Source of the DNA: Hyposmocoma kahamanoa
Taxonomy: Eukaryota; Arthropoda; Insecta; Lepidoptera; Cosmopterigidae
Assembly (NCBI RefSeq): GCF_003589595.1
Contig: NW_020655550.1
Coordinates: forward strand, 526,889-590,888
DNA: 64,000 bases
Reading direction: 5' to 3'
Shown: positions 17,764 through 45,679 of the stretch, in pieces
How positions within the stretch are numbered: position 1 is the first letter of the stretch
How the letters are laid out: every line of letters begins with the position of its first letter
The notes under the pieces: model-generated
What the model was told of the DNA's origin: nothing
The model's database searches: none
The model's input: the letters and a program-made list of their open reading frames with translations, nothing else
Translations under genes and position numbers: made by a program

Positions 17764-19123
17764 TAAGGCAAAAATAACAGTTGTGACGCGTCAACTAGGC
17801 GAATAATTGTTAATTTACATTTAGATCAAAAATGGACGAACAGAAGAATAGCTGAGCGTTTAAATTGTTCTGTGAAGAAAGTTTGTAATGCAATTGATCA
17901 CTATAAAACACATGGAACTGTTGAAAAGGCTCGGCCAAAAAAAACTTCTCCCAGAAAAGATAAGCTAATCGTTCGTGTTGCTAAAAAATACCCATTTAAA
18001 GGCTCAAACCATATTAAAAATGAAGTTTTTTCGCCTGATGACCCCAGGAACGTCTCATCAAGACTGATACGTCGAAGATTAGTGGAAGCTAAATTGTTTG
18101 GAAGAACCTCTCGAAAGGTACCGCTTCTTACCAAGCAACATCGAGAGAAGCGATTATTATTCGCAAAAAAATATGTTAATTGGACGGTACGAGACTGGAA
18201 AAAAGTTTTATTTTCAGATGAAACGAAAATAAACATCGTAAATTCAGATGGAAAGCGCTATGTTAGACGTCCTGTAAACAGTGCTTTTAATTATAGATAC
18301 ACAAGGAGCATAGTCAAGCATGATGGCGGAAACATTAAAGTTTGGGGGTGTTTTTCCGGATGTGGAGTTGGTCCCGTTCGGAAGATTGAAGGTACAATGG
18401 AACAATGGCAGTACAAAAATATCTTAGAGGACACAATGATACCCTACTCGGACAATCATTTGCCTGTAACCTGGATCTTTCAGCATGACAATGATCCTAA
18501 ACACACGGTCAATAGCGTCAAATGTTTCCTTAGCGAACAGCGTATATCCGTTTTAGACTGGCCAGCAAATAGTCCGGATTTAAACCCGATAGAAAATTTG
18601 TGGAATATTGTTAAGAAGAAAGTCTCAAACAAACGTCACACCAGTCAAAACGAATTATATGAAGCATTTGTTGAAGCATGGAATTCAAACCCCCTAGAAA
18701 AATGTATGACATTGATTGAATCAATGTCACGTCGTTGCAGAGCTGTTATTGAAAATAAGGGATACGCCACTAAATATTAAATATAAATATTGGTAGGCTG
18801 TGGATAGTACCTATTTCGTAAATAAAAATACTAATTGCTAATAATTAAAAAAATGTTGTTTTTTTACACTTTTTTGTTGTTGTTTCTAATTAGTTGTCCA
18901 TTATTGTTTATACCTTAAAACTGATTTAAGTGTTTGTCCGTACTGTAATATTGAAACTGCACTTGTGTAGTGGGATTTATATTGTTTTTCTAATAAATAA
19001 TAAATCGTTGAACCTATTGTTGTCCTACTTATTGTTTAATTTTAAATAAAAACGATTGCGGTGAAGTTTCTTACATAATGTCAAGGACCGATTGTAGTGT
19101 TTCTAATTATACGACCACCACTG
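17764..19123 (+). mobile_element. Tc1-family transposon, left end missing
   Basis: The right end is well defined: the complement of CAGTGGTGGTCGTATAATTA stops at 19123 and is followed by TA. The motif TGTTTCTAATTA occurs both at the end (about 19098) and about 215 bp inward (about 18882), suggesting paired subterminal binding sites. No matching left inverted repeat was found upstream of the transposase, where a different dispersed repeat begins. Confidence 0.75.
17767..18780 (+). pseudogene. Tc1-type DD34E transposase lacking an ATG
   Basis: The frame runs without a stop from just after a TAA at 17764 to a stop at 18778-18780, about 337 codons. It begins with a helix-turn-helix region (DQKWTNRRIAERLNC), then a second basic domain (TRPKK-like, here ARPKKTSPRKD). 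The catalytic domain has D in LFSDETKIN, D in IFQHDNDPKH and E in SPDLNPIENLW, with exactly 34 residues between the second D and the E. The triad and length are as expected for Tc1 (about 340 aa). However, no ATG precedes the first domain; the codon before the expected start is TAA. All catalytic residues are intact, so loss is probably recent. Confidence 0.88.
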
Positions 19124-30812: not shown

Positions 30813-32691
30813 TTAATCATGATCAGATTCTTCGTTTTCGTCGTCATTGTCAGTGTTTTGATATTCAGTGACGATCGGAGCCACTAATAGGTCTATAGCC
30901 TCCTTTGGTAAGTTTTTAATTTTTTGTTTTGTTTCTTTCCATTCACTAGTCAGTATAGGATCTGAACTTAGAAGAAGATAGTTAAAAATATCTTCATTCG
31001 TTTTTTCTCGACTGCATTTTCTAGCATAGTGTTCACGGTAACTCTTAAAATCTTTGTTGCGCGCCTCTTGCGCCTCTTCAGTCAATTGACCAATGGGCAA
31101 CAATGCATTGGATTCTAATTCTGCTCCGTGTATAAGAAATTTGTGTATTGTGGGAGGCATACAATACCAACCATACAAATTAACAAAATGCCGAGCAGTA
31201 TTATGTGTATATTCGCGGAATCGATCTATGCCGATAGAGTGTCCACATGATGCTACTATCAGTATAGTGTGCATTTTTTAATCAATTGTACGTCTAATTT
31301 AATTATTTCTGCAGACAATTCAGGGTTAGAAAAAACGCCTTGCTGTGTTGCCGTCATTCGAGTTTACGAAACCGGGTTTCGGGAAGTCCACGAGCAATCC
31401 AGTTTTTTCTTTAAATTTAGTTTGAATACTTTTTTTTTCTTTCTGCAACTATTCTTTTGTCATTACCTCTAGCTTGCCACTTTAGAATTGGCAGTTTGTA
31501 GGATAGGTGGAGAAGACATTAAAAAAACCGTATGCACCCATGTAGGACTGATATCCCAAATTGTAAATTCTGCGTTGTTATTTTTCTATTAATCATTTTG
31601 TTAATATCATTAAATTCACTCGATGTGGCACCGCAAATGTAACATTTCCGTGTAGATGTTGTTTCTGTGAGAGCATTGCAAATCTTCCCATCGACCATCG
31701 CAAAAATCATTATGTGATTGACTGAAACAGCTCTACCGTGTAAATTCAATTTTGTGTTTTCCGACTGACATATTTCAGCGTCCATCCGATTTTTTTCTGC
31801 TACAGAAACTGCAGTTGATTCCTTTGTGAAAGCAATTTTCACACGTCTGCAACACCTCGTAGAAGACGGACGAGGATTCTGCCAAATTATTTTCGAGTTC
31901 TTGTCCTTTGAATTACATACTAAACGAAGTGGTACGAGAGACATTATAAATACAGATGAATCACTCGCTTGGCATCCATGGAACGCTTGTTTATAGGAAC
32001 TGTGACCTGAGCTGCCGTCGTAGCCCCACTTTGTCATTAGTTGTAGTTTCCCCAATTCTTCATTGCTTAGTGATGATAAAACATTTTCCTGAACAGTTAG
32101 CAGACGTTCCAAGGTATGATTCAGAAGGGCTTGCAAGGGGACTTCCACCGATATCTCACTTACTGTAATATTATTTGGGTAGCATTCTTTTTTCTCATTT
32201 TGTAATATTTTGTATGAAGGAAATCTGTCCGGATTGCTTTGTCTTATTAAACTATATTGATATCTCGACAACTTAGCGTCTATCAGTAAAGCTAGAGCAT
32301 CTTTACCAGACATCATGCAAGGCTTTTTCTCAAGTGAATTTTTGTAGGCTTTTCTATATTTGCTTGCCCGTTTCGGAGAGGTTGTAATGATTTCCTTTAA
32401 CAATTTTGAAGCATCCTTATTTCCTGATGCCCTCAGACATATTTGTGTGGCAAAATTTAATTCCGCAATAGATCTAGACTTCCGTAAGTCTTCCGTTTTT
32501 TTGCGTTTAGTTCGTTCGGTGCTCTCCTCAAATGAAATCGTTGGACGTCCACTCTTCCTTAAATTAGACGGCTTGTAGTGGGTAAAAACAATCATCTTAG
32601 CAAGCCAACCATTATATTTCTCGAAAAACCTCTTCTCCGATCTTCCTACATTGAACCATCTTATTTTAAATTGAGACTTGAAATGATACAT
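30813..32691 (-). pseudogene. Transib transposase, broken
   Basis: The ATG at 32691 opens 390 codons: a basic N-terminus, then KWGYDGSSGHSSYKQ, whose D fits the first catalytic residue, and later CYICGATSSEF, a zinc-binding pair. A TAA at about 31516 interrupts SVLHGCIRFF; similar sequence (LSYKLPILKWQARG, then VDFPKPGF in another frame) continues beyond it. The last part, 31274-30813, holds CGHSIGIDRFREY, HFVNLYGWYCMPPTIHKFLI and LTEEAQEARNKDF, where the E corresponds to the third catalytic residue of the RAG1/Transib fold. At least one nonsense change and two frameshifts are visible, so the element cannot make its own transposase. Confidence 0.85.
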
Positions 32692-32712
32692 TTTTCTCTT
32701 TAAATTACTAGG

Positions 32713-32828
32713 TGAAATAAACTAATATTAACATAATCCAAGCATTTTTATTATTTGCAGATGACATTTTACAGTGTCAATTTTAACCATAGATCTACCA
32801 ACCATAGTGTATATATATATATATAACA
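32713..32828 (-). repeat. 3' LTR of the gypsy-type element
   Basis: 116 bp, matching the other LTR except for one A/T difference near 32762 and a shorter TA run. Confidence 0.88.
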
Positions 32829-32846: not shown

Positions 32847-34757
32847 TTACAACATCTCCTCGATAAGCCGCCGAGGTCGCCTGATGGTGCGCTCATGGCG
32901 CTTTGATGCTCGCTTTAGGGACGCCGTGGTAGGTGGCGAATGCGTAGTAGCAGCGCATGGCCGCATTGGGGTGGTAGCTGAGTTCTGCGTTCCTGACGAA
33001 CTTGCAAGGGGTTCCACCTCACTGGTGTTTATATGATGCGGGTCGTGTGTGTCCTGAGAGCCATCAGTAGAAACTGGACTGACATGGTCGGCTAAGCGGG
33101 AACGCACTTGATCAGCATGATATCTCCTTTCTACCCCATTGGCTGTGTCTACGGTATACGAGTATCTATGCGTACGTCTGGATATGGTAGCAGGTTCCCA
33201 TCGTGACCCATCCCGGGCTCGGACAAACACGCTGTCCCCCGATCTAAAACATGGTGTTAAATTTTCTGAATTTATATTAGCCTGTATCTGCCTATGCTGC
33301 AGGGCCTTTTTAGAGTTAGGGCGTGCGTTATCCAAAATACAATGCAGCTGACGTCCGAACATAAGTTGTCCTGGGCTCTTACCGGTGGTGGAATGAGGTG
33401 TTATGCGGTAGGAAAAAAGGAAATTTTCTAGTCGTCCTTTCAAGGTGAGATGGTCACTGGCACTTGATGATAGCCTGGATTTGAAAGTGCGAACCAGACG
33501 TTCAGCCAAACCGTTAGTCCGGGGATGGTACGGGGATGATTTTATGTGTAGAATACCCTTGTCTCTACAATAGTCTTGAAATTCCTGAGAAGTAAACTGT
33601 GGTCCATTGTCAGAAACCAAGAATTGAGGGAAGCCGAAGGTGGTGAAAATGGAATCTAACTCTTCACACAGTTTAGAAGTGGTTATCTGGTTCATGGGTT
33701 TAATTTCGACCACCACCACCACCACCACCACCACTACCACTCTGTGTACTGTCAATTCTGCATTAGACGGTTTATCTTCTGGATTGGGCATCCTTGAAAG
33801 AAAACCAGCCATAAAATTTAGATGCCCTTTTGTAAAAACTATATCGTAGTCATACCCTCCAATGATTAAAGCCCAGCGCACTAGACGGTTATTGACAATC
33901 TTCGGCAAGTTACGTTGTGGCCCCAAAACGTGAATCAATGGCTTATGATCAGTGCTAAGTATGAATTTGGTACCACGTAAATATTGATCAAACTTTTGGA
34001 TTCCAAAAAATATTGCTAAAGCTTCTCGGTCAATAACTGAATATTTAGTTTCCGCTGGTCTTAGTTTCCTTGAAGCAAAAACGATAGGTTGAATTTTGTC
34101 TGCCGATTTATGATATAGGACGGCACCCACACCTTTTTCCGAGGCATCGCAGGCTAAATACAATGGGCGCTTTTCGTCAAAAGCAACAAGCGGTTTCGAT
34201 TTACTAATAAGATCTTTTGCGTTCTTAAAACTCGTATTTTCTTTGACGGTCCATTGCCACTTCCGGCGACCACCAGTCAATGCATGCAGATCTGCGCAGA
34301 CACTATGTAGGTGAGGAATAAATTTCTCGTAAAAATTTATAAGACCTAAGAATGACCGCAGTTCTTGGGCGTTAGTGGGCGGTGTCGCTTTCATTATTGC
34401 ATCAATTTTCGATTTCGTCGGCCTAATTCCGTCTTTAGTAATTGTGTGCCCTAGGTATTCAATCTCTGTCTGGAAAAATGAACATTTCTTTAAATTGACT
34501 TTTAAGCCCGCCTTATCTAGTTTGCTAAATACGGTCGATAGCGTTTGGAGGTGTTCAATGTCATTTTTCCCTGTTAAGGCAATGTCGTCAAAATACACTG
34601 CGATATTTGGTACACCGTCCAAAAGTTCATGCAAGTAATGTTGGAAAATTGAAGGAGCTGTTGAGATTCTAAATGGCATCCTATTGTATTGATAATATCC
34701 TTTGTGCGTAGAGATTGTCAGGTACTGTTTCGACTCTGGAGCTATTTCAAATTGCAA
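32847..34757 (-). pseudogene. Gypsy-type pol: reverse transcriptase, RNase H and partial integrase
   Basis: The frame begins inside the reverse transcriptase (QFEIAPESKQYLTI) and has the active site VYFDDIALTG. GLINFYEKFIPHL marks the connection, and RNase H follows with LACDASEKGVGAVL and STDHKPLIHVLG. The frame then passes through a run of eleven valines coded by a GTG microsatellite (near 33712-33745). It goes straight into the integrase at NQITTSKLCEEL, with VSDNGPQFTS holding a catalytic Asp and a later TNGLAERLVRTFK the Glu. The zinc-binding HHCC region and the first catalytic Asp are missing, so integrase is not functional. The C-terminal tail is basic. The reverse transcriptase front lies in another frame at 34775-35434. 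Confidence 0.88.
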
Positions 34758-34774
34758 GTACGCATCCCTTAAAT

Positions 34775-35434
34775 CTATTTTCGAAAATTTGGCTCCATTT
34801 GCCAGATTTTGTCGTAGCTGGTCAAAGAGTGGGACCGGGTGAGAATGAGTGACAATAACACGATAATAGTGCTACGAAAATCACCGCAAATTCCGATTTG
34901 GCCATTTGTTTTTACGACATTCACTGTGGGTGTAGCCCATTCTAATGGCGTGACATTTGGATCAACTTTAGTCACGATTCCTTCGTCAACTAAACGTTGA
35001 AGTTCAATTTCTATGTTTTTACGCATGTAAAACTTAACTGGTCGAGCAGGGACATGTTTAGGTACTGCCCCAGGTTTTATATGAATGTTGACTTCATAAT
35101 TTTTAACTTTTCCTAGTTTATTATCAAAAAGGGATGAAAAGGTTGAAAGTACCTGTTTAAGCGTAGTGGTGTGTTGAACGGGTTTAACCGAATAGACTGG
35201 CTCTGGGAATGTCATTTTATACATCTCGCTCCACTGGAGGCCAAAAAGCATTGGATTGGCGTCTTCCATAACCACAACAGGTAATATTTTCCGCTCTCCC
35301 ATGATTTCAACGGTTACGTCTGTGAGACCTTTTGGTTTGAGCTTAAGGTTCCCATAAGCTCGTAGCTTCGGTGCCTTGGTTAGAGAGGGTTCTCCGATCC
35401 GCTTCCAGAAATTTGTGCTAATAATGGAGTACAC
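34775..35434 (-). pseudogene. Gypsy-type pol: protease to reverse transcriptase start
   Basis: This frame holds the end of the retropepsin and the start of the reverse transcriptase (KFYMRKNIEIELQRLVDEGI, ATPTVNVVK and ICGDFRSTI). The protease active-site segment lies at its upstream edge (35405-35475) and reads FDWDPGSVYS, with Pro where the usual D-T/S-G has Thr or Ser. Near 34860 a frameshift separates it from the downstream pol frame; the residues LFDQL and FSKIDLRDAYLQ can be followed only by changing frame. Confidence 0.8.
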
Positions 35435-35478
35435 GGATCCTGGGTCCCAATCGAATGTGCAACTGACTCCGTTGACGG

Positions 35479-35740
35479 TTACATCAATTCTCTTGCTGTC
35501 CTTGTTTCCTTGCGTTCAACCTTGAAGACATCATCACTTTCATCAGAACTCGTGTCAAAAGACTGTGACGAACTTCCATCATTGTGTGCATTGTTCTTAA
35601 TTTTATGCAGTTTGTTACTATAATTGGTTGGTTGTTTCTTTTCTGTCGCGGTGCTCGCTAAATACCAGACTTTATACAGCAACTTTCAAAATGACCTTGT
35701 ATGTGGCATTCATCGCATGTATGGTCTTTTGCCTTGCAAA
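35479..35740 (-). pseudogene. Gypsy-type gag/pol linker with CCHC knuckle
   Basis: Just after gag, in a shifted frame, the minus strand encodes CDECHIQGHFESCC (about 35735-35690), a CCHC zinc knuckle as in nucleocapsids. A stop near 35680 follows, then a serine-rich acidic linker (DTSSDESDDVFKV). The break between gag and this segment may be a programmed shift or decay. Confidence 0.6.
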
Positions 35741-35748
35741 CGTTTAGC

Positions 35749-36567
35749 CTATATCTCTCTTGTGCACATTACGTACGTACATTGTTTATAGTGACGTCCT
35801 GTACTTGTTCTTGCTTTTACTTTATTAGCGGTAGCGGGCATGCTACTATCAGCATCACCTTCTGCTAACTCTCTGGACTGAGCTACTGCAAAGAATTGAT
35901 CGAAAGTAACCTCTATAAGTTTTCCGTCGTAAGTCTCTTGAAGGTCTGGCCATTTCTGTTTTAGGTCCACTTCTAGTTGAGGGTGATTTAAGCCGATAGC
36001 AAATCGATCGCGCAATTGACATTGAAACATTGTGTCCTTGTAGCCACAATCGCTGGCGAGTTTCTTTAGCCTGTTAGCATACTGTTCCATAGTCTCGTTG
36101 TGGGCTCGTACGCAACTCCAAAATTCAGTTAGTGCTTTATACCTCGTAACTTTAGTTCGATGTAAATCGAGTAGTTTAGACTTAATGTCATTGTAGGAAC
36201 TGTTTCCAAAGTTAGGAACGAGTGCTATTTTTAGGTCGTGAAATATCTCAGGAGACATACATGAAAATAACAATTCTTTCCTTGTGTCATTATCACTTAC
36301 AGCCCATATGTTACATTTGACTTCGAAAAAATCTAAAAATTTTTCTACCGATACAGTCGCAGGGTTAAAAGTGTCGCATTTGAAACTTTTAATAATTGTG
36401 TACTTGTTGCTGCTTGCCGAGCTGGTAGGTTCCGTGCCAGGTGTTGCTGGCGTGGGGAGCTCCACTGCTGGTCGTTGTTGCAACACAAGTTGTTGCAAAA
36501 TGTCCGAAATCTGTTGTTGCTGATTTTTTTGTAATTGTAGAAATTCTTGGAATTGTTCCTTATTCAT
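35749..36567 (-). CDS. Gypsy-type gag-like protein
   Basis: A 272-codon frame starts with ATG at 36567, 27 bp inside the 5' LTR. It opens with a glutamine-rich coiled segment (QLQKNQQQQISDILQQLVLQ), followed by a proline/threonine spacer. The capsid-like core contains VEKFLDFFEVKCNIW and FWSCVRAHNETMEQYANRLK, the helical pattern of the Ty3/gypsy retrotransposon gag family. The zinc knuckle follows in another frame. The frame itself is intact; whether it is expressed is unknown. Confidence 0.8.
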   Translation of the reverse strand: MNKEQFQEFLQLQKNQQQQISDILQQLVLQQRPAVELPTPATPGTEPTSSASSNKYTIIKSFKCDTFNPATVSVEKFLDFFEVKCNIWAVSDNDTRKELLFSCMSPEIFHDLKIALVPNFGNSSYNDIKSKLLDLHRTKVTRYKALTEFWSCVRAHNETMEQYANRLKKLASDCGYKDTMFQCQLRDRFAIGLNHPQLEVDLKQKWPDLQETYDGKLIEVTFDQFFAVAQSRELAEGDADSSMPATANKVKARTSTGRHYKQCTYVMCTREI

Positions 36568-36593
36568 TTTGTTTGGTTACTCCTCGTCGCCAA

Positions 36594-37480: not shown

Positions 37481-38041
37481 CACCGTAATATGATTTAAAT
37501 GGAAACATTGTACATACTTTAAGCGCCTTCTACATTATGATCACAAAATCCTACGGTGACGGTGACCTCCACCTGTGTTTGGACTTTTTTTTCCATCCTC
37601 TAAGGTAAAACCCGAGGAGTTAGCGTGATTGATCGAAGCGAAGTTTTTTTATCTAGAAATGTCAGAAGGCACAAAAAATAGTCAGTACTGAAACTCGGAA
37701 GTAAATAATTAGTAATTTTATTTATAAGTAAGTATTTGGGATGTAATAATAGTACACTGATGGATCGATGATCATTAAGTAAGGAAATGTTATGCCTAAA
37801 CTCAGATTCAGTTACGTCTCTCATTACTTTATTTTCATTTTCTACAAGATTTGTTAAATTTTTGATCAGAAATGCACGATATTGAAAAATTACACTTGTA
37901 GCCCAGTCCTTTTCGCCATGTGTCAATGTCAAAATTGTCAATTAAAATCTGCAGAGATCGATTACTGAGCTTGCCCTATTTTTATTTATAATTCAAATTT
38001 CTCGGCTGTATATCTAGCAAATCATTCATTTGCACAGCTTT
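37481..38041. other. 5' flank of the SCOC gene
   Basis: No coding exon was recognised. The motif CCATCCTCTAAG appears at about 37593, one of several copies in the 37-50 kb region. Confidence 0.4.
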
Positions 38042-39758
38042 ATGTTTGTCATGTCTTCTATAATGCAGAAATGTAACGACGACAATATTCCTTTGGCAGA
38101 TGACGACCCGCAGGTTATAATTACTGATGATGTGGAAAATAATCGTTTGGATCACGGTCGTTCCATGGACTCATTGCCGAGTTCGTATACTGGGGGATCA
38201 TCGAGTCCTGGACTAAATGGGCCGCCTAGCTTTGAACCTGACTCGGGTATCGACGAGCAGGAAGAAAAGGCACGCCTCATATCACAAGTACTAGAATTAC
38301 AGAACACTCTAGATGGTAAGTTGAATGTTTTCATGGAATTTCGCAACGCCCTATTGCCTATGGCGAAGTTTCTTTCTTGTTTACAGCGAATTAATGTTTT
38401 TGTCCATTGTGCAGAAATGTCAATTTATACCATCAGCTTAATCTCCAGTAGAGTTCATAGCACCTACAAAATGCTCGCGTGCAATCTTTTGTTAATTATA
38501 TTCTATAATATGTTTCTTTGTGTATGATTAATTCATTATTAATCTTGCTATAAAGTTGCAATTGCAAATGATTGGAGGCCTTAGTACTATTAGAAGAAAA
38601 GTCCCAGGCCATAATTTCTTGTGTATGTCAAGTTTAGGAATGTAATTGTTTTTGAATTATTTTATTTATGAGAGTCAGAACTCACAAAGCATTTATTGTC
38701 CACTTGTTGAAAACTGTCAGAAAAGAAAGTTATCAAATGTTCTTGTCTAGTGCGCTGTGTAAAATGCATTTTTTAAATGATCCTTATATGTAATGCAGCG
38801 AAGTGGTGGTCCTTAATCTGAATATCGAAACAGAAAAATGTTTTGTCTTGCTTTTTATCATTATAGAATTGTCAAAGTCAAATCATTTTATTTGCTTTAA
38901 ATATAATTACATGCAAATTTGTATAGTTGTACAGACGGCAGCACATCAAGCCACACCTTGGTGGATCTTGTTCCATTGTACTGGAGGTCTCTGCATATCC
39001 TTTTTATTTTTTCTCACATTGCTTTTGTTGTCTAACATTGTCTGTTGTCATTGCAAACAATACATACTCTTGGTATTATAATATGTCAAAAGTGGTTTTA
39101 TCCCATGAAAGTCATAAAAATATTCAAACAAAAGTGTTTTGCTTGATGTGCTGTTGACTGTACATTTTACAAACTTTATTTGATTGTCACCTGCAGTTTT
39201 ACATGTAGAGGCATTATTTACCAAATAGAAGAATTCCTCTATTTTCTTCATGTTCACAGCAAAGTGCATTCTACTAGTAAATAATTATTAGTATTTAGCA
39301 TTTTTTATTTCATCTTCTTTTTATTTGGAAATATATATTCTCAATGTCAAGAGACATTTGTTACGAAGTATTGGGTAGTTTCTTGACTTTGTTATTTTCT
39401 TTTGTGTCTGAAAATGCTCATTTTACTTGGGGAACAACTATACTTAAAAGAAACATACCTGAATTTCCCGTCATTTAAAGAAAGCAAACTAAAAAATATA
39501 TAAGTATAAAATAATAACAAACTACATTGTTGCAACACTTTCATAACCTACAGAATTTAAAACATACAATGTTTCATACAAAGATACTATTATAAATCTT
39601 TTTAACTGATTGTTACAGATTTGTCCCAAAGAGTTGACTCAGTTAAGGAAGAAAACTTAAAGTTACGTTCAGAAAATCAAGTGCTTGGTCAGTACATTGA
39701 CAACCTCATGTCAGCATCTTCAGTGTTCCAGTCTACCTCTCCTAATGCTAAGAAGTAG
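38042..39758 (+). CDS. SCOC: Short coiled-coil protein (SCOC homologue), two exons
   Basis: SCOC is a small Golgi-associated coiled-coil protein; in mammals it binds Arl1-type GTPases and takes part in autophagy regulation. Exon 1 (38042-38315) ends in a GTAAGT donor and exon 2 (39619-39758) begins after TTGTTACAG; they join in frame, giving about 137 aa. The conserved C-terminal coiled coil is unmistakable: [17 protein letters not shown] in exon 1, then [20 protein letters not shown] and [14 protein letters not shown] in exon 2. The N-terminus is acidic and low-complexity, ending in [20 protein letters not shown]. The first in-frame ATG is 38042; 38051 (MSSIMQK) is an equally good start. A candidate AATAAA lies at 39921. 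An upstream noncoding exon could exist. It looks functional. Confidence 0.92.
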
Positions 39759-41716: not shown

Positions 41717-42507
41717 GGTCCACTTCATTGGCAATAATTTATGATCAGAGAAAAGAAGACAAAACGCTGAGATAAAATCACATTTGTCGTTAAATAAAAA
41801 TAAAGATCTAGAGAGAAACTTGCTAAGTTGGCAACTCTGCCTAAATCTTTTATAAACTAAACAAGTTATGGAAATCACTTGACGTTGAACACACATTTGA
41901 TTGCTATCGGTTCTCGAGGAAGTCACGCATCCAACCTTCGGAAAACACGTGGTTAAAGCGTGACGGGTGAAAGCTAAGTCCTGTACAAGATGAGCTGATA
42001 GGAATAAAATATCATGCCATTAAAGCGTGCACGTATTATGGAGACTAATGTTTCTGTCCCTCTATTCCCACCTGTTCTGTCGGCAGAACTATTGGGATTT
42101 TTTTTACCATTAGTTCTGTTCACAGAACAAATGGGAACCTCTATTCCCACCTGTTCTGTCGGCAGAACTATTGGGATATTTTTTTACCATTACTTCTGTG
42201 ATTTATAAGACTATGCTTTACACCCTGGTTCATACTCAGATATTCCCAATTGTTGTTACGTAGTTCTGTCACAAATATGCAGTTTGTCTTATAAATAACA
42301 AAGATATCGTAAAGGATTAAAAAATATATTAACGTAGTTTCTCTAAAAACAAAGGTATCTCCTTAGAATAATAACGCATAGAAACCTAGCCCGCACACGC
42401 TAAAGTGAGGCAAGTTAGAGGGTTCCAAACGCGTCCCAGGAGCGCGCGGGCTGTTAGTGCTCAAGGTCATATTGCACCGCGAACAGCTCCAAAATTTTTT
42501 GCAAAAA

Positions 42508-42582
42508 ATGACGAAATGTGCGGTAAATGGGTGTAAAAATACAACAGACAAACAAAATAGACACTAACATCGCATTCCACAA
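42508..42582 (+). pseudogene. THAP zinc-finger first exon
   Basis: ATG at 42508 opens MTKCAVNGCKNTTDKQNRH, with C-x4-C spacing as in the start of a THAP domain (C2CH). A TAA follows at 42565. In a shifted frame the residues IAFH continue the domain up to a GTAAGT splice donor at 42583. The THAP domain's usual second half (W..., then C-x2-H) is not present downstream in this element. I infer a broken first exon of a P-type transposase; a captured host THAP exon is the alternative. Confidence 0.65.
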
Positions 42583-43146
42583 GTAAGTAATGCGTTTCAA
42601 CTCATATTTTTATGTAAATATTCACTAAAACAGAAAAATAATTTCGCGGCAACAAGATACGAAAGTGTTGCAAAGTAACGAATTTTTTTTCTCCCCATTT
42701 TGCTATTCTGTATCAAAATAATTATATTACGTAAATTTTAGTGGTGCCTGTAATTTCGATTTATTTGCGCATTTTGAACTAATATTTACTCGAATAAACA
42801 TTAAATGTTTTCGTTAACTCCTGTAAGTGATTGGGACACTTAATTATTTTATAATACTTTTAACGGCTCTGCGTTCATGCTTTATTGAATAATTATTTAT
42901 ATTAATTTTATTTGAATTGGAGCACATATTGCAACAAATTTACAGTATATATTTGTTTCTACTATAGTGTTGGCACCACCAGTACAACTTTGATAGCTTA
43001 TATGTCTTTCTTTTCGTAACTCAAGCGAAATATTTTATATTAAAATATTTTATTTTCTTAAAAGGGGAGCATTCTTAAGCGATTTTTTTAATCTATTTTA
43101 ACAGTTATTTTCTTTAATGTTTGCTTATGGCATTTTCGGTTTTAGG

Positions 43147-43612
43147 TTTCGAATATGGCACTTATTTCTAAATCCAAGATGGCGGGCGCGATTTTTCGAA
43201 TAATGGCAAGTTGGGTATCGTTTTCGAGATGTTTGGGAATGTTCAATACAAATATGGGACTCATTTCTAAATCCAAGATGGCAAACACGACAGTTCAAAT
43301 AAAAGCAATATTCGTAATGAGCACCCCCAAATACCTCGAAAACGATACCCAACTTGCCATTATTTGAAAAATTGTGCCCGCCATCTTGGATTTACAAATA
43401 GTGCCATATTCGCATTGAGCATCCCCAAATACCTCGAAAATGATACCCACGTAGCATTTTTTTGAAAAAATCGTGCCCGCCATCTTGGATTTACAAATGA
43501 GTGCCATATTCGTAATGAGCATCCCCAAATACCTCGAAAAGGATACCCATATAGCATATTTTGAAAAATCGTGTCCGCCATCTTGGATTTACAAATAAGT
43601 GCTATATTCGTT
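43147..43612. repeat. Minisatellite with an inverted centre
   Basis: A unit of about 115-120 bp (GCCCGCCATCTTGGATTTAC, then ATTCGTAATGAGCA, then CCCCAAATACCTCGAAAA) is repeated about three times on the plus strand from about 43310 to 43612. It occurs at least once in inverted orientation from 43147 to about 43290. It lies entirely inside the P-like element. Confidence 0.85.
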
Positions 43613-45679
43613 TTTCATCGACAAAACCGAGCACATCTGTAGGCACCTGATCGACAATGTCGGGCAAATCTGTAGGCACCTTTAACTTAATGATGAGTTA
43701 AGCAAGATACAATTTCCCCACTTTTGAGGGAAATGTTATTCCATGGCATCATTTTTTGTATATTTGTGTGCGTGCCGACGAGCGTAGTTACAAGTTGCTT
43801 ACGCCTACATGAATTTGGTTTTTGCCTCACTTGTGACAGTTCGTTTGATATGAAACTATCATTCTATGCGTTATTATTCTAAGGGTATCTCTATGTCACC
43901 GTCAAGTAATTGCATTTGGTACACTTTGATCATCTCGTCGTTTTGGACCTGCTGATTTGTCCTTCGTTTGGATGTTTTCTTGACATTTGCCATTTGGATG
44001 GCTTTAACAGAAAAAAAGATGCATCTTCTTCTATGTTTTTCAGGAATTGAAAAACAGTCGCTGGCCTGGTTTTGAACGTGCCGTTAATGGCACGATGCCA
44101 GCCCTCAACAACATTAGTTGTGCGACGGCGCCGACCAAACGCAGTCCATGATTTGATGCGCCTAGGTTTCATCCAGAAATTCATGTATTTCATAAACTTA
44201 TCCAAGTCGGACCTGTCACTAAAATCGAGCACTTGGGATTTTACATATTCCCATCCTTCCATAACACGTTCTTCGGGCAATAGTGGAAGAACGCTGCACA
44301 AACTTACGATTCTCATTTGGGAAAACATCAGCAATGGCTTGAATGGCGGCTTCCTCGAAATCAGTAATGAAAGTGGGAGGTTTCCAATCTGGAATCTGAG
44401 TTTTTATTAGACTGAAAAGTGTGGTATAGGCTGTCTTGGTTTTGTGACTAAGAAGTGCATATATTAGAGACATCACAGTAGTAGATAGACACACTTCAGA
44501 GCTTTCAAGATCTGCATGAATAGTGTAAACCTCTGTGAAAGGTCCCGGGCAAATTTTAATTGTGCCGTCTGCAAAAAAAAAATATTTTTTTCTCGTAAAA
44601 GAGTCCTTGCTTCCTTAGTGGCAAAAATTATAATACGGACGCCCTCGTCCTCGTCGTTGTAATCTGCCAACATAAACTTAGAAAACGGCATAGGTATTTC
44701 TACTGCATTTACAATGTCATTTAGGTAGTTCATTTTCTGAACTTCGTTTAATTTATTTCTCCTTCTGTAAATCGACGACTTAATTTGGTTGAAGCTGGGT
44801 ACCTCTTTAATGAGATCTATTCCCGTGTTTTTTAAAGCAGCTACTGTTTTCTTGTACACTGCCGGTACGGTTTCACTGCCTATCATCATTTCATCAACAC
44901 TTTTGTGGATTATAACGGACATGGCTTCTTTGTTTGTGTCAGGAATGCAGGCATTGTCATGGTCAACATGTTTAACTATTTCCTTTTCATCCTAGAATAA
45001 AAAATAAAAATACAGTAAATATAAAACAAATCCTTGTGTGTAAACTTAGGTTCATACCACAACTTATTTAAACAGTAATTACTTCGGAAGTGGTAACCGT
45101 TCCACTGCATTTTCTTGTACATGGCACATCTCCATAACGTTTGTAAATTTGGATATTGAGAGAGCCGGTAATATTCGTAGCCATTTTCGAGCAACACGCG
45201 GCCGCGGCCGCGTTTTATTATGTTAAACTCACTCATTGAACAAACAACAACCCTTTTCAATATATAAGATTAATATTATTGCCCTTTTAAAACCCTTCAA
45301 ACATGAATTTCATGACGTTGTCATCAGGATACAAATAAATAATAGATACTTACCTCAAGTGGCCAGTACTTGATAATTGATAGCAAACTGCATAGAGAAG
45401 TAGTTTGTTCGTGAACAGAACTAATGGTATAATATTTAAAAAATCACAATAGTTCTGCCGACAGAACTATTCAACGGAACCGGTGGGAATTATTTTGTGA
45501 ACAGAACTAATGGTAAAATAAATCCCAATAGTTCTGCCGACAGAACTACTCAACAGAACAGGTGGGAATATCTGAGATTGAAGCAGGGTGTAAAGCATAG
45601 TCTTATAAATCACAGAACTAACGGTAAAAAAATCCCAATAGTTCTGCCGACAGAACAAGTGGGAATAGAGGTTTCTGTC

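Follow-up and report, generated by a model that had tools for sequence, protein, structure and literature searches.

A transposon family with CTTAG ends and a THAP exon in Hyposmocoma kahamanoa, probably a non-autonomous family of the P superfamily

The terminal inverted repeats (TIRs) of the Drosophila P element start with CATG, and its coding frame opens at an ATG near nucleotide 153, compared with position 146 in the consensus of the family described here. The P element makes 8-bp target site duplications (TSDs), as this family does, and its N-terminal THAP domain and its THAP sites close to the ends, at 41-51 and 53-63 (PMC7776569, PMC3688188), have candidate counterparts here; it differs by its 31-bp TIR and by encoding its own transposase (PMC7776569). 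PMC3688188 puts the 41-51 site at the 3' end of P, whereas in the review PMC7776569, contrary to this, the short spacer of 9 bp belongs to the 5' end. Zebrafish Pdre2/THAP9 is similar in its 8-bp TSD, its THAP domain and the presence, alongside it in the genome, of copies with internal deletions, and dissimilar in having a 13-bp TIR, CATACCTGTCAAC, that starts with CATAC (PMC10983969), and subterminal repeats that lie some 400 bp from the ends (PMC7776569). The TIR-end string of the present family is CTTAGAATAATAACGC, and we refer to it as the CTTAG family.

The copy with which we began lies in a 64,000-nucleotide stretch of H. kahamanoa contig NW_020655550.1 (the window). A first-pass annotation of this DNA had reported 22-bp TIRs that match perfectly and an 8-bp duplication free of mismatches, and both were recovered at the positions given in Table 1. 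Between them lies an internal foldback whose single-strand DNA fold has a z of -15.5 relative to shuffles and whose unit number seemingly varies among the copies of the family. A bacterial-type promoter and terminator scan found promoters to be no commoner than chance.

Table 1 Positions in the window of the CTTAG element, its parts and its insertion host
Feature	Position	Strand	Description
Insertion host	42059..45671	-	Decayed MULE, itself bearing inverted subterminal repeats
CTTAG element	42362..43883	+	Complete element (1522 bp); the THAP end is the left one
Left TIR	42362..42383	+	Exactly 22 bp, perfect, CTTAGAATAATAACGCATAGAA
Right TIR	43862..43883	-	22 bp, perfect match to left
Left TSD	42354..42361	.	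8 bp, GGTATCTC
Right TSD	43884..43891	.	8 bp, GGTATCTC, exact copy of left
Leader	42384..42507	+	Upstream of THAP ATG; GC 0.52 vs window average 0.36
Left 11-mer	42403..42413	+	AAGTGAGGCAA, 11-bp subterminal inverted repeat, candidate THAP-binding site
Right 11-mer	43822..43832	-	AAGTGAGGCAA copy, 52-62 bp from right end
10-bp repeat, left arm	42502..42511	+	CAAAAAATGA, exact inverted repeat, A-rich, weak
10-bp repeat, right arm	43749..43758	-	126-135 bp from right end
THAP exon 1	42508..42582	+	Frame broken in window copy by 2-bp deletion
Donor-like GTAAGT	42583-42588		After THAP exon 1
Internal foldback	43147..43616	.	Repeats of ~99 bp, two one way and three the other way

The element was said to be inserted at the end of a MULE transposase gene, and this proved correct. 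The MULE has inverted ends at 42059-42270 and 45404-45671, between which the CTTAG element is nested, subterminal repeats at 42136-42270 and 45539-45673 (a 137-column match at 90%) and an apparent 8-bp TSD of its own, TTTCTGTC, identified by eye at 42051-42058 and 45672-45679. Its frames are broken, and the one at 44219-44614 contains the MULE domain PF10551 (Pfam, E=2.1e-7). Apart from the insertion, the MULE frame was already frameshifted close to its end. Once the insert is removed together with one TSD copy, one MULE frame can be followed along the right flank, across the junction to the left flank and on to a TAA, placing the insertion point in the last codons of the MULE, in its minus-strand tail. 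An uninterrupted MULE protein from the database (P0001) ends ...VYQMQLINGNIDIPLFLEKLR, and the window flanks joined through one TSD copy read ...VYQMQLLDGDIEIPLFLEKLR followed by a stop. The flanks with one TSD copy were identical to P0001 at 32 of 48 positions and reached residue 100; with both TSD copies the match was broken, with 26 of 44 positions identical and the match ending at residue 96. Thus, an independent sequence backs the insertion, the 8-bp duplication and the reading of the site before insertion. The MULE ends (42059-42199 and 45404-45671) also contain palindromic GTTCTGTCGGCAGAAC-type repeats, which on the left side follow one another at intervals of about 40 bp.

Other mobile elements occupy the same window. 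A 337-residue Tc1/mariner-like transposase frame lies on the plus strand at 17767-18780 (DDE_3, E=1.7e-15), and minus-strand transposase frames, which we take to be Transib-like, lie at 30813-32721, the 400-residue frame at 31519-32721 matching PDB 6pqn over residues 136-397 (E=3e-43). Long gag/pol-like frames on the minus strand at 32847-36576 presumably belong to a Gypsy-type retrotransposon. A plus-strand frame at 38018-38527 is perhaps a host exon; it has a weak match, below cut-off, to DUF2205, a short coiled-coil protein (E=0.026).

In the 728-Mb host genome (727,957,541 bases in 2,727 contigs) the 16-bp core of the TIR gave 6,914 exact matches, of which 3,513 were forward and 3,401 reverse, and the reversed 16-mer used as a control gave none. 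All 34 adjacent facing TIR pairs among the first 100 of the 6,914 match places were taken as a two-ended set, in which 18 copies are 375-386 bp long, 11 are 1.5-1.9 kb long and the other five measure 710, 968, 2159, 2372 and 3051 bp. One of them, L019, is 97.8% identical to the window copy over its full length. The 18 short copies are on average 5.2% off their consensus, a figure that probably includes one wrongly turned copy, and have a mean pairwise identity of 0.903, which is probably too low, with a minimum of 0.496; the identity value of L007 is meaningless since that copy was misplaced by the turning rule. A further 26 pieces of 10 kb (L041-L066), covering 27 of the 32 ends that had no partner within the 100 places, were tested for paired ends, and the eight pairs taken from them were chosen by TSD match and stand outside the TSD count given next.

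The 8-bp TSD is exact in 25 of the 34 two-ended copies and has at most one mismatch in 30. Taken by itself, the window copy would fit a 6-bp TSD and a 23-bp TIR (CCTTAG) nearly as well, and we dropped that alternative because the other copies favor 8 bp. The target sites have a preference, nnTAnAnn: 20 of 26 have T at position 3, for which a binomial test with the background taken as 0.32 gives 3e-6; we know of no P motif of this form. One two-ended copy stands apart: L016 (G000:C8:5474189-5475018, 710 bp) shares the TIRs of the family and has an exact TSD, but its subterminal sequence differs and contains neither the 11-mer described below nor a THAP start, and it is perhaps a second sub-type. 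Searches elsewhere gave little. Viral contigs had three matches to the TIR 16-mer, all in one context with only 19 bp in common, three to an 18-mer of the internal repeat, where the surrounding alignment never exceeded 22 bases, and none to the THAP-exon pattern. The 22-mer TIR had no match in prokaryote genomes, and in a literature text search for the TIR letters the 15-mer was absent among the matches listed.

Just inside the TIRs the window copy has the exact 11-mer AAGTGAGGCAA facing inward at both ends; even when one mismatch is allowed, the window contains no other copy of it. Of 37 copies (the window copy, L007-L040, L057 and L059), 30 left ends and 33 right ends entered the end consensuses, seven left and four right ends having been dropped as unrecognized by a simple rule; TIR agreement in these consensuses is inflated because the copies were chosen by the exact 16-mer. 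The 11-mer lies at 41-51 from the THAP end (it begins at 42 in the window copy) and at 52-62 from the other end. Agreement at the left end drops after the 11-mer from 0.970 to 0.800 and recovers deeper in (0.872, 0.930), and at the right end it goes from 0.948 to 0.623 past position 82, where short and long copies part. The right 11-mer is found at 52 in 28 of the 34 copies. In the window copy an 11-mer pair anywhere within 23-200 bp was reached by 44 of 2000 shuffles, and one within 35-70 bp of both ends by 2 of 5000, a bin set post hoc with P in mind. Paired sites are present just inside the TIRs, unequally spaced and at distances like those of the P THAP sites, with the shorter spacing on the THAP end. 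The presence of AAGTGAGGCAA at 41-51 and 52-62 of the consensus ends is new here. A 10-bp repeat pair 126-150 bp in (reached by 12 of 5000 shuffles) was considered as the counterpart of P's 11-bp subterminal repeat and rejected: it is A-rich and its left arm differs in most aligned copies, which have T at the second base.

The THAP first exon, said to lie 147 bp from the left end, does begin there: the ATG at 42508 is element position 147. The window copy reads MTKCAVNGCKNTTDKQNRH, then an in-frame stop, then HRIPQ, and the 2-bp deletion responsible is common to this copy and L007. Its match to Pfam THAP (E=0.027) spans positions 1-26 of the 87 in the model and falls short of the curated cut-off. 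Counted by simple match, the THAP start is present in at least 27 of 35 copies (the window copy and the 34), a lower bound because L007 and L026 show the start in the copy alignment and the turning rule misplaced L007 and probably others. The exon is open to ...FHK in 22 of those 27. The C-x4-C pair is kept in 20 of the 27; the second zinc cysteine is absent in the other seven, one of which (L015) lacks the first as well. GTAAGT follows the exon in only six of the 27 (the window copy, L010, L011, L013, L017 and L019), the others having mostly GGAAGT. The intact exon of L013 had human THAP1 as its top PDB match (residues 4-24, with the same FHK end, E=0.097) and gave E=0.033 against Pfam THAP, below the Pfam cut-off; two of the three intact exon variants had no Pfam THAP match, and protein searches with the exon returned no candidates. 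Only exon 1 was seen in the copies, and not the second half of THAP.

The first-pass annotation had proposed that absence of the THAP exon from all other copies would mark it as a capture. Its recurrence across copies argues that the window copy did not itself capture it. There remains an earlier event, in which an element of some other or unnamed superfamily captured a host THAP exon and was then amplified; we consider this very improbable. Such an event would account for a single THAP exon, for a center that is an unrelated repeat array and for the erosion of the donor site and zinc cysteines in some copies. However, a GC-rich leader (0.52 in the window copy) precedes the exon, which lies 146 bp from the end, where a transposase gene would start, which a random capture need not do, and its placement is the same in several subfamilies, long and short.

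No transposase was found between CTTAG ends when frames of at least 75 residues were inspected by eye in L007-L026, which make up 20 of the 34 two-ended copies, and in the long copy L057; the 14 two-ended copies outside this survey are about 378 bp each. L057 (5549 bp, exact TSD) was considered as an autonomous copy and rejected, being filled by LINE-like frames. These lie at L057:4847-8360 on the minus strand and were labeled by eye as endonuclease and reverse transcriptase frames nested in the CTTAG element. P-type transposases have an RNase H domain with a GTP-binding insertion. In the host genome there are 131 matches to PF21787, which we take to be the P-type RNase H domain (best 2.2e-46), and none in 14 control genomes. 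As 23 of the 131 are in stop-free frames of 711-874 residues, P-type transposase genes are likely to be present in this genome. These frames include ones of 874 residues on C1659, C528, C537, C551, C647 and C826, of 830 on C1063, of 807 on C768 and C826 and of 762 on C733.

We propose that the CTTAG element belongs to a non-autonomous family of P-superfamily DNA transposons, with a probability of about 0.84. This best reading of the sequences rests on end geometry and P-type matches, since a THAP domain plus an 8-bp TSD are by themselves no proof of P: PRKRIR/THAP0, which is hAT-derived, and Kolobok also carry THAP. The P assignment of the first-pass annotation is partly supported, by the 11-bp repeats at P-like distances and by the P-type matches in the genome. 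Its description of the ends as unusual is borne out: the window copy starts with CTTAG, missing CA and missing, at positions 2 and 3, the YARNG given as the P terminal consensus (PMC2820524). On this motif the other copies are uninformative because they were selected by it. The non-CA ends and the nnTAnAnn preference are the unusual points of the family. We count against P the lack of a transposase joined to CTTAG ends, the lack of YARNG or CA, the weak THAP profile matches and the eroded cysteines and donor, together with L016, which has TIRs and an exact TSD without 11-mer or THAP start, and the finding that both 11-mers are exact at 41 and 52 in only 20 of the 34 copies.

A hAT-superfamily derivative whose transposase carried an N-terminal THAP domain is the strongest rival, though an unlikely one. 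hATs also produce 8-bp TSDs such as those observed, and the T at position 3 of nnTAnAnn speaks for a hAT as well. The terminal motif of hATs is YARNG-like, which CTTAG fails at positions 2 and 3, and hAT ends usually have several short subterminal motifs, whereas each end of the CTTAG family has a single paired site, at a P-like distance. A THAP N terminus is listed for the hAT-derived gene PRKRIR/THAP0 (PMC3257199 table); against this, P-type transposase matches are plentiful here, a one-sided comparison in that the genome was searched for P-type only. A Kolobok-type element can be dismissed almost outright, since Kolobok transposases usually carry THAP but their copies are flanked by TTAA (PMC6004289), not by varied 8-bp TSDs.

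If the family is of P type, it would descend from an autonomous parent whose ends and first (THAP) exon it has kept, the exon deriving from the parent's transposase gene, and the remainder would have been lost or replaced. CTTAG copies may be recognized and moved in trans by a P-type transposase encoded at another place in the genome. The THAP domain of this transposase would most likely bind AAGTGAGGCAA near each end, the enzyme would pair both ends through the sites at 41-51 and 52-62 and cut at the TIRs, and insertion would follow with an 8-bp stagger. One such insertion presumably struck a MULE that was by then decaying, within its last codons. We lean toward a P lineage in which the terminal CA has become CT and the target preference nnTAnAnn, with THAP-site geometry as in P, thousands of ends in one genome and the THAP exon kept in most copies read. 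If this is so, site geometry rather than the terminal CA would be the conserved part of P-type ends, and the thousands of CTTAG ends together with long open P-type frames would make this genome a testbed for end choice by THAP transposases. It also suggests a sequence rule for finding P-derived MITEs without any transposase.

Two other related systems are non-autonomous. The P-MITEs of Anopheles gambiae likewise combine P ends with an unrelated center, have 8-bp TSDs and span 205-2450 bp, but their master P elements are known and they number 5-310 copies per family (PMC1562414); no mention of a THAP exon in these MITEs was found in the accessible part of PMC1562414. Izanagi, a non-autonomous P element of medaka, resembles the CTTAG family in being short (1316 bp) and multi-copy with an 8-bp TSD, and in having degenerate THAP exons and no transposase (PMC2820524). 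It differs in its 27-bp TIR starting with CAATG, its three THAP exons and its 13 genomic copies (PMC2820524 Table 1). As Izanagi already exemplifies P elements with THAP remnants, the CTTAG family would be a known kind of element with odd ends.
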